A stretch of DNA of 34,570 nucleotides, taken from NCBI GenBank assembly GCA_012520815.1, contig JAAYNM010000024.1, positions 1 to 34,570 on the forward strand, in the 5' to 3' direction. Positions 7,901-9,493 of the stretch are shown here, piece after piece. The notes below the pieces were generated by a model that had not been told where the DNA came from, ran no database searches, and saw only the letters and a program-made list of their open reading frames with translations. The position numbers and the translations under genes are program-made. Positions within the stretch are counted from its first letter, which is position 1, and each line of letters starts with the position of its first letter. This stretch comes from Clostridiales bacterium. Lineage in GTDB: Bacteria; Bacillota; Clostridia; Lachnospirales; Lachnospiraceae.

Positions 7901-7930
7901 TTCACATAAAAAGCCATCTTATGCTATAAT
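7901..7930 (+). promoter_or_regulatory. Promoter of the AAA+ ATPase gene
   Basis: TTCACA (7901-7906) and TATAAT (7925-7930) with an 18-bp spacer. The leader of about 65 nt ends in AAAGGAGAAA just before the start codon. The 312-bp stretch 7691-8002 otherwise holds only the divergent promoter and its repeats. Confidence 0.6.
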
Positions 7931-8002: not shown

Positions 8003-9493
8003 ATGCCAGTATTCGATTTTGCTAATTCCCCAAACGAAACAACAACTCATGAATGTACCTACACTACATTCTCTTCTAATAAACCCTCTGCCTCACCTAG
8101 CGACCCAATTTTAGTAATCGACAACCATCATAAAAACTGGAATCATCACTCTCGTGGTATGTTTACAAATTTCGTAAAGAGAACTTCCTTTGAATTCAGT
8201 GAAGAAAATGAAACCATAAGTGCTGATATTACTAAAGTAGATTCACGCTTTGTTAGCCTTCTTAAATGGTTAGGCGAAAATCATATTAATGTACGTCTCT
8301 CAGGTGAAAACACTAGTGAAGGATATGCAGTATATAAAATCCAAGAAACCTCATTGGGCAGTGGGAATAAACTCTCTGCGGAGGATGGTTTTCTTCAATT
8401 TATGATGGATAGGTTATTTGTTAGTAGTTCACCTAATGACGAAGTTGATGAGGAGGATGAAGATCTTGCTGAAGTTGGGGATAGCATGAAACTTACCAGT
8501 CTGCAAAGTATCAAGGATTTTATGACCTGTGCAGGCAAAACCCTGCCTGCTAACATCAGACTTTGGGCTAGAAGAAATCTGGCAGTTGCCCGTTCTTCCG
8601 AAGTGACACCTGAGGAACGACGCCATGCCCAGCGTGCTCTTTCCATTATGATGAATATACAATGGAAAAGTAATTACTTTGAATCCATTGATCCTGTTGA
8701 AGCCCGTAGAATTTTAGATGAAGAACTATATGGTATGGAACGTGTAAAGCAGAGAATTATTGAGACTATTATCCAGATTAACCGTACTCATTCACTCCCT
8801 GCCTATGGTCTACTTTTAGTGGGTCCCGCCGGAACAGGTAAATCCCAAATTGCTTATGCCGTTGCTCGTATCCTAAAATTACCATGGACTACTCTAGATA
8901 TGAGTTCTATTAATGATCCTGAACAGTTAACTGGTAGTTCACGTATATATTCTAATGCCAAACCTGGAATTATAATGGAAGCTTTTTCAATGGCAGGAGA
9001 ATCCAATCTTGTATTTATTATCAATGAGTTAGATAAAGCATCCTCTGGAAAAGGTAATGGTAATCCAGCAGATGTACTCCTCACACTTCTTGACAATCTC
9101 GGCTTTACCGATAATTATATCGAATGTATGGTTCCTAGCGTAGGTGTTTATCCTATCGCAACTGCAAATGATAAAGATCAGATAAGCGCACCTTTAATGT
9201 CCCGTTTTGCAGTTATTGACATACCAGACTATACTTTTGAAGAAAAGAAAATAATCTTCTCTAAATTCGCTATGCCTAAGGTTCTTAGACGTATGGGACT
9301 TAAGGAAGATGAATGTGTTATTACGTCTGAGGCTGTAGATGCCGTTATTGAAAAATACTCTAACACCACTGGCATCCGTGCTTTAGAACAAGCTGCTGAA
9401 CATATGGCTGCCAATGCCCTATATCAAATAGAAGTCAATCACATATCAAAAGTGATTTTCGATGCCAAAATGGTGAGTGACCTACTAGCATAA
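8003..9493 (+). CDS. Lon-like AAA+ ATPase without protease domain
   Basis: This 496-residue protein carries one AAA+ module at about residues 235-480: ELYGMERVKQRIIE (the Lon-type lead-in), Walker A GPAGTGKS (274-281), Walker B region FIINELDK (338-345), sensor 1 ATAND (Asn389), a candidate arginine finger in MSRF (Arg401) and sensor 2 GIRALEQ (Arg459). The Lon peptidase domain with its Ser-Lys dyad is absent. The Walker B aspartate position is Asn341, with Glu342 kept. The first 230 residues match nothing I recognise; they are Ser/Thr-rich at the start and contain an acidic run (about 147-156). The gene stands alone between its own promoter and a terminator. A remodelling or chaperone role is inferred; the client is unknown. 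Confidence 0.8.
   Translation: MPVFDFANSPNETTTHECTYTTFSSNKPSASPSDPILVIDNHHKNWNHHSRGMFTNFVKRTSFEFSEENETISADITKVDSRFVSLLKWLGENHINVRLSGENTSEGYAVYKIQETSLGSGNKLSAEDGFLQFMMDRLFVSSSPNDEVDEEDEDLAEVGDSMKLTSLQSIKDFMTCAGKTLPANIRLWARRNLAVARSSEVTPEERRHAQRALSIMMNIQWKSNYFESIDPVEARRILDEELYGMERVKQRIIETIIQINRTHSLPAYGLLLVGPAGTGKSQIAYAVARILKLPWTTLDMSSINDPEQLTGSSRIYSNAKPGIIMEAFSMAGESNLVFIINELDKASSGKGNGNPADVLLTLLDNLGFTDNYIECMVPSVGVYPIATANDKDQISAPLMSRFAVIDIPDYTFEEKKIIFSKFAMPKVLRRMGLKEDECVITSEAVDAVIEKYSNTTGIRALEQAAEHMAANALYQIEVNHISKVIFDAKMVSDLLA

Follow-up and report, generated by a model that had tools for sequence, protein, structure and literature searches.

AAA+ motors are routinely disabled by changing the Walker B aspartate, and nevertheless an asparagine has been fixed by evolution at this position in the family of proteins described here. 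What kind of machine, then, is encoded at positions 8003 to 9493 of the window, by which we mean the whole 34,570-nucleotide stretch of Lachnospiraceae DNA that was analysed? The question reaches beyond a single locus: the family is present in over a quarter of the sampled Lachnospiraceae genomes, providing a natural experiment on the need for the Asp and on how a degradation machine might turn into a remodelling one. An answer would assign a function to a family carried by the common gut genera Blautia, Roseburia and Coprococcus; word searches of open-access papers returned no literature on such a family, and it has no name of its own in the protein-family libraries that we searched. The explanation that we favour, at a probability of roughly 55%, is that the protein is a LonA-derived, protease-free remodelling ATPase, likely hexameric, that acts on a dedicated client by means of Asn341-based ATP hydrolysis.

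The gene and its transcription signals

The gene at 8003..9493 is complete and encodes, from an ATG start, a protease-less LonA-type AAA+ protein of 496 amino acids (all coordinates refer to the forward strand of the window). The start at 8003 is backed by a ribosome-binding-site-like AAAGGAG and by the N-terminal peptide MPVFDF (residues 1-6; 8003..8020), which is found at the N-terminus of nearly all orthologues and at which most homologues begin. The upstream neighbour is divergent and the downstream one, separated from the ORF by 171 bp and located on the opposite strand, is convergent; therefore, the gene is probably transcribed alone. A candidate sigma-A-like promoter, TTCACA-18-TATAAT with an extended -10, lies at 7901..7930 and agrees with the consensus at 11 of 12 positions, in a search that relied on consensus match only and that found 17 sites where 8.7 were expected in shuffles. 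By eye, extended -10-like boxes were also seen upstream of many of 81 family genes, in about 110 bases for each, and no CIRCE-like repeat was seen in these same regions; on this ground we rejected heat-shock control of the family.

Domain organization

From its N-terminus, the protein has an unrecognised domain, then a helical segment and an AAA+ module, both of the LonA type, and finally a Lon lid, at which it stops. The LonA model TIGR00763 covers residues 181-478 with 181.6 bits, the alignment ending at model position 566 of 795, and this score falls far below the full-Lon cut-off of 608.05 because the N-domain and the peptidase are missing. The best PDB sequence match is B. subtilis Lon (3m6a; E 2.8e-40). 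Structure prediction of the full-length protein gave a model of very low confidence for the AAA+ region (mean pLDDT 56.5). The Lon-type helical lid spans residues 408-496, the end of the protein (9224..9490), and its model aligns with 4git over 88 residues (VIA-align Z 14.8, rmsd 1.6). The ORF terminates at this lid with no Ser-Lys peptidase domain, and a Pfam scan of the protein up to E=1 returned no Lon peptidase family, in agreement with the initial annotation of this stretch, which had been made from the sequence alone and had reported the peptidase domain as absent.

The same annotation described residues 1-230 as matching nothing recognisable, a description that holds for about residues 1-163 but not for about residues 164-230, which align with the helical segment of LonA. 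This segment (residues about 165-230; 8495..8692) corresponds to the LonA helices that precede the AAA+ module, the alignment beginning at residue 181 with TIGR00763 and at residue 163/164 with PDB Lon chains, and a model of residues 1-230, built from 78 rows with a mean pLDDT of 71.4, places helices at 167-180, 183-197 and 203-217. At the opposite end, residues 1-20 comprise the short conserved peptide and a linker. Divergent short members retain MPVFDF (mean pLDDT 54 for residues 1-10) as approximately [VI]F[DE][FW], again followed by a variable linker, and the peptide looks like a docking motif for a partner. The acidic run that had been pointed out in the N-terminal part is present as well, at about residues 148-157, in a linker that varies in sequence and length (residues about 145-158; 8435..8476; pLDDT <50).

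Between these linkers lies the N-terminal domain proper (residues about 45-140; 8135..8422), modelled as strands 49-54, 62-66 and 71-80, a helix at 81-92, strands 96-104 and 107-115, and a helix at 130-140. This beta-beta-beta-alpha-beta-beta-alpha order is the element order of an OB fold. VIA-align comparison with the model returned mostly SilF, SSB, LEF-3, CipA and RecG, structures that we take to be OB folds, with a weak best Z of 4.6, and Foldseek against BFVD and PDB gave nothing significant (no E below 0.2). Rows for the Hsp70 lid (Z 6.5) in the fold comparison were discounted as helical-bundle similarity. An OB-like fold is thus weakly suggested by the model. At the sequence level, neither Pfam, searched with residues 1-230, nor PDB, searched with a 24-row profile of the N-domain, produced any match up to E=10, be it to a Lon substrate-binding domain or otherwise. 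Scans with the N-domains of 24 members gave scattered single matches with no Lon domain among them, and the one NCBIfam match of the N-domain, FosG (E 0.016), was far below its cut-off.

The Walker B asparagine

The Lon-like AAA+ core that had been proposed for this protein was confirmed by alignment, in the form of Walker A GPAGTGKS with K280 (residues 274-281; 8822..8845), sensor 1 Asn389 (9167..9169), the candidate arginine finger Arg401 in the LonA 'LLDR' column (9203..9205) and sensor-2 Arg459 within the lid (codon 9377-9379). The pore-loop-1 tyrosine, Y316, is also kept. The Walker B motif, VFIINELDK (residues 337-345; 9011..9037), carries Asn341 in place of Asp and retains the catalytic Glu342. 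K280 and N341 are separated by 60 residues, which is the spacing between the Walker A Lys and the Walker B Asp given for LonA in part of PMC9569914, and therefore N341 occupies the Walker B Asp column, as had been claimed.

Asn is found in column 341 in 98 of 98 homologues and in the window protein, in an alignment of 101 rows in which WINDOW, L001 and L032 are one and the same protein and from which 11 matches below 500 bits, true Lons, were excluded. All 20 divergent members, of which 14 are long forms, have the equivalent Asn. Among the distinct AAA+ stretches from family ORFs in the fetched loci, those of the divergent long forms (546-724 aa) included, 133 of 133 read N-E-L-D-K; one further cut frame, L135, is without the Walker B motif. 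No homologue with Asp at 341 was encountered among these stretches, and Asp-Glu occupies Walker B in 11 of 11 true Lons. For Asn341, 56 of the 98 homologues use AAT and the other 42 use AAC, indicating that the residue is retained while the DNA drifts. In addition, E342, N389, R401 and R459 are invariant in every row of the 98-homologue alignment, and K280 in 40/40 rows of a separate alignment, which argues against a decaying site. The evidence is strong both for the domain anatomy and for the Asn being fixed among the family members sampled.

What would such a site do? The magnesium ion is kept in place by the Walker B Asp, either through direct contact or via the water shell of the ion, as described in part of PMC3940203. 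Mutation of this Asp usually hampers hydrolysis and spares nucleotide binding and assembly, and an excerpt of PMC6344862 gives the hampering of hydrolysis by designed changes in other AAA+ proteins as the general case. In tobacco Rubisco activase (PDB 3t15; CLFINDLDAG), too, this Walker B position is occupied by Asn, an analogy that is limited in that its FINDLDAG, set against FIINELDK, differs at the second position also (Asp in the activase, Glu in the family). Rubisco activase is an established ATPase, and therefore Asn alone is no sign of a dead site. Slow ATP hydrolysis by the family protein, as suggested in the initial annotation, is possible, although the catalytic Glu, the sensors and the Arg finger are all invariant.

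Distribution and diversity of the family

A search of 397 genomes of the Lachnospiraceae, to which the window belongs, with a profile of the N-domain gave 112 genomes positive for the family. A class-level draw yielded 6 positives among 391 genomes, five of them Lachnospiraceae and one (G757) from outside, and a phylum-level draw 2 among 299, both Lachnospiraceae; the three draws overlap. The family is restricted mainly to Lachnospiraceae and is nearly absent elsewhere. Close homologues occur in Blautia, Roseburia, Coprococcus, Enterocloster and others, several genomes carry two copies, and occurrence within the genus is patchy, with a full-length match in 5 of 8 genomes, that of the window included.

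In the long forms of 546-724 aa, found in other Lachnospiraceae (loci L148, L150-L152, L154-L158, L160-L162, L164 and L165), the shared N-domain and AAA+ module are preceded by additional N-terminal sequence and by linkers. In a tree of 38 AAA+ rows, midpoint-rooted for drawing and so giving no direction of change, a very long branch, with support of 100/100, lies between the family and five Lons. The long forms are scattered over several places in this tree, which therefore does not support a single long-form clade. Extended from the window protein to all its relatives, our reading becomes more tentative, at slightly less than even odds: the family would be a LonA-derived clade of non-proteolytic motors of the Lachnospiraceae, in short and long architectures, with the Asn as its fixed, functional hallmark, hydrolysis that is tuned or altered with respect to magnesium, and a dedicated client bound by an OB-like N-domain. 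If true, Rubisco activase would have a natural counterpart in this clade.

Two irregular loci were seen. G249:C6:85225-85914 holds a family frame cut to 366 aa, and G357:C91:18873-19182 holds short broken family fragments in a genome that also has an intact copy.

Genomic context

The family has no operon partners. Among 97 loci, 80 of which included flanks of at most 6 kb per side, with the others, at only about 1.5 kb, contributing little, no conserved neighbour was found: no non-family cluster went beyond 23/97, and offsets were scattered. Likewise, nothing common occurred at a fixed position beside the family gene in 20 divergent loci. At one locus only (L152:5466-7867), two genes downstream of a long-form gene resembled, by eye, a TelA/XpaC-type pair.

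We also considered two cellular roles that were then rejected. A role in sporulation does not fit the occurrence of spoIVA, which is about as frequent in family-positive genomes (26 of 40) as in family-negative ones (27 of 40), according to a tally made by eye over 80 genomes, with G166, one of the positives, being a partial match below the cut-off. The window genome has no spoIVA. A role in defence was dismissed in view of PADLOC matches to AAA+ parts only, the best being DolB (1.5e-9). This genome (G000; Lachnospiraceae, 1.8 Mb, 99% complete) lacks a full Lon protease as well.

Proposed mechanism and alternatives

We envisage a stand-alone AAA+ ATPase that is related to the LonA motor, and most likely derived from it, in which the Lon substrate-binding N-domain has been replaced by a small, possibly OB-like beta-barrel. 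The protein would most likely form a Lon-like hexameric ring and, given its intact Walker A and sensors, would bind ATP, which by analogy with Rubisco activase it may hydrolyse with Asn341 replacing Asp in the magnesium shell. A dedicated client would be engaged via the N-domain, pulled on through the pore-loop tyrosine Y316, and then released or remodelled, not degraded. Derivation from LonA, activity, ring and client are the parts of this model that we infer, and no client, partner or phenotype came out of the analysis. The ATP-binding remodelling factor suggested in the initial annotation would fit this anatomy and is to that extent partly supported.

The strongest competitor to this model is a switch that binds ATP but does not turn it over: Asn341 would prevent all or almost all hydrolysis, and the ring, stabilised by ATP, would hold on to a partner as a scaffold or sensor. 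Such a switch is favoured by the complete fixation of the Asn in our sample and by the usual outcome of Walker B Asp mutation, which affects hydrolysis and not nucleotide binding or assembly (as put in part of PMC6344862), yet Glu342, sensors 1 and 2 and Arg401, needless for a hydrolysis-dead scaffold, are invariant, and Rubisco activase carries Asn at the same position; we regard the switch as unlikely, though worth serious attention. Retention of the Lon motor with its pore-loop-1 tyrosine would equally suit the unfoldase half of a two-part protease, feeding clients to a peptidase encoded elsewhere. This is improbable, since the C-terminus ends at the lid, the absence of a conserved neighbour in 97 loci means that there is no peptidase neighbour, and the family shows no association with Lon.

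The relationship of the core to LonA could also be taken to indicate a regulatory paralogue that mixes into Lon hexamers. Lon, however, is missing in 23 of 112 family-positive genomes, a share similar to that in negatives (52 of 285; Fisher p=0.67), and no full Lon protease was found in the window genome, which is one of those positives; therefore, the family protein is not a Lon subunit, and we give this largely refuted explanation very little weight. Least credible of all is a decaying Lon remnant, a pseudogene-like local variant, to which the absent peptidase domain and the altered Walker B might point. It is refuted by conservation, given that ORFs are intact, the Asn is fixed, and, of 18 other genomes with a full-length match, 17 show 69-80% identity over the whole protein and the remaining one 64%.

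Relation to known AAA+ systems

The family resembles LonA (TIGR00763; MEROPS S16 LonA) in its AAA+ module, lid and preceding helical segment, and in its 60-residue spacing, sensors and Arg finger. It differs from LonA in having neither a peptidase domain nor a recognised Lon N-domain, in the Asn that stands for the Walker B Asp, and in a three-residue deletion after 'LLTLLD', where LonA has PEQ, GEQ or SEQ. With Rubisco activase (PDB 3t15, 3zw6), it shares Asn at the first acidic position of Walker B and would also share the character of a protease-free AAA+ remodeller; the activase is not among the best 60 of 103 PDB matches to this protein. PAN and ARC/Mpa are AAA+ rings with OB domains, and the possible OB-like domain ahead of the AAA+ module recalls them, inasmuch as the weak OB assignment allows, whereas the core of the family is of the LonA type. 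The domain order of PAN and ARC/Mpa also differs from that of the family. Finally, the firmicute LonBA (B. subtilis LonB) is likewise a Lon variant, which PMC9569914 reports only from Firmicutes, but it retains the peptidase domain and has a Walker A Lys-Walker B Asp spacing of 82 residues, compared with 60 in the family.

A look for phage origin led to PHROG 15585, which matches the Lon core of the protein. The edge of one IMG/VR viral contig (L168:2-724) encodes the C-terminal part of a family member in which NELDK is kept, and this piece may be a provirus border or mis-sorted host DNA.
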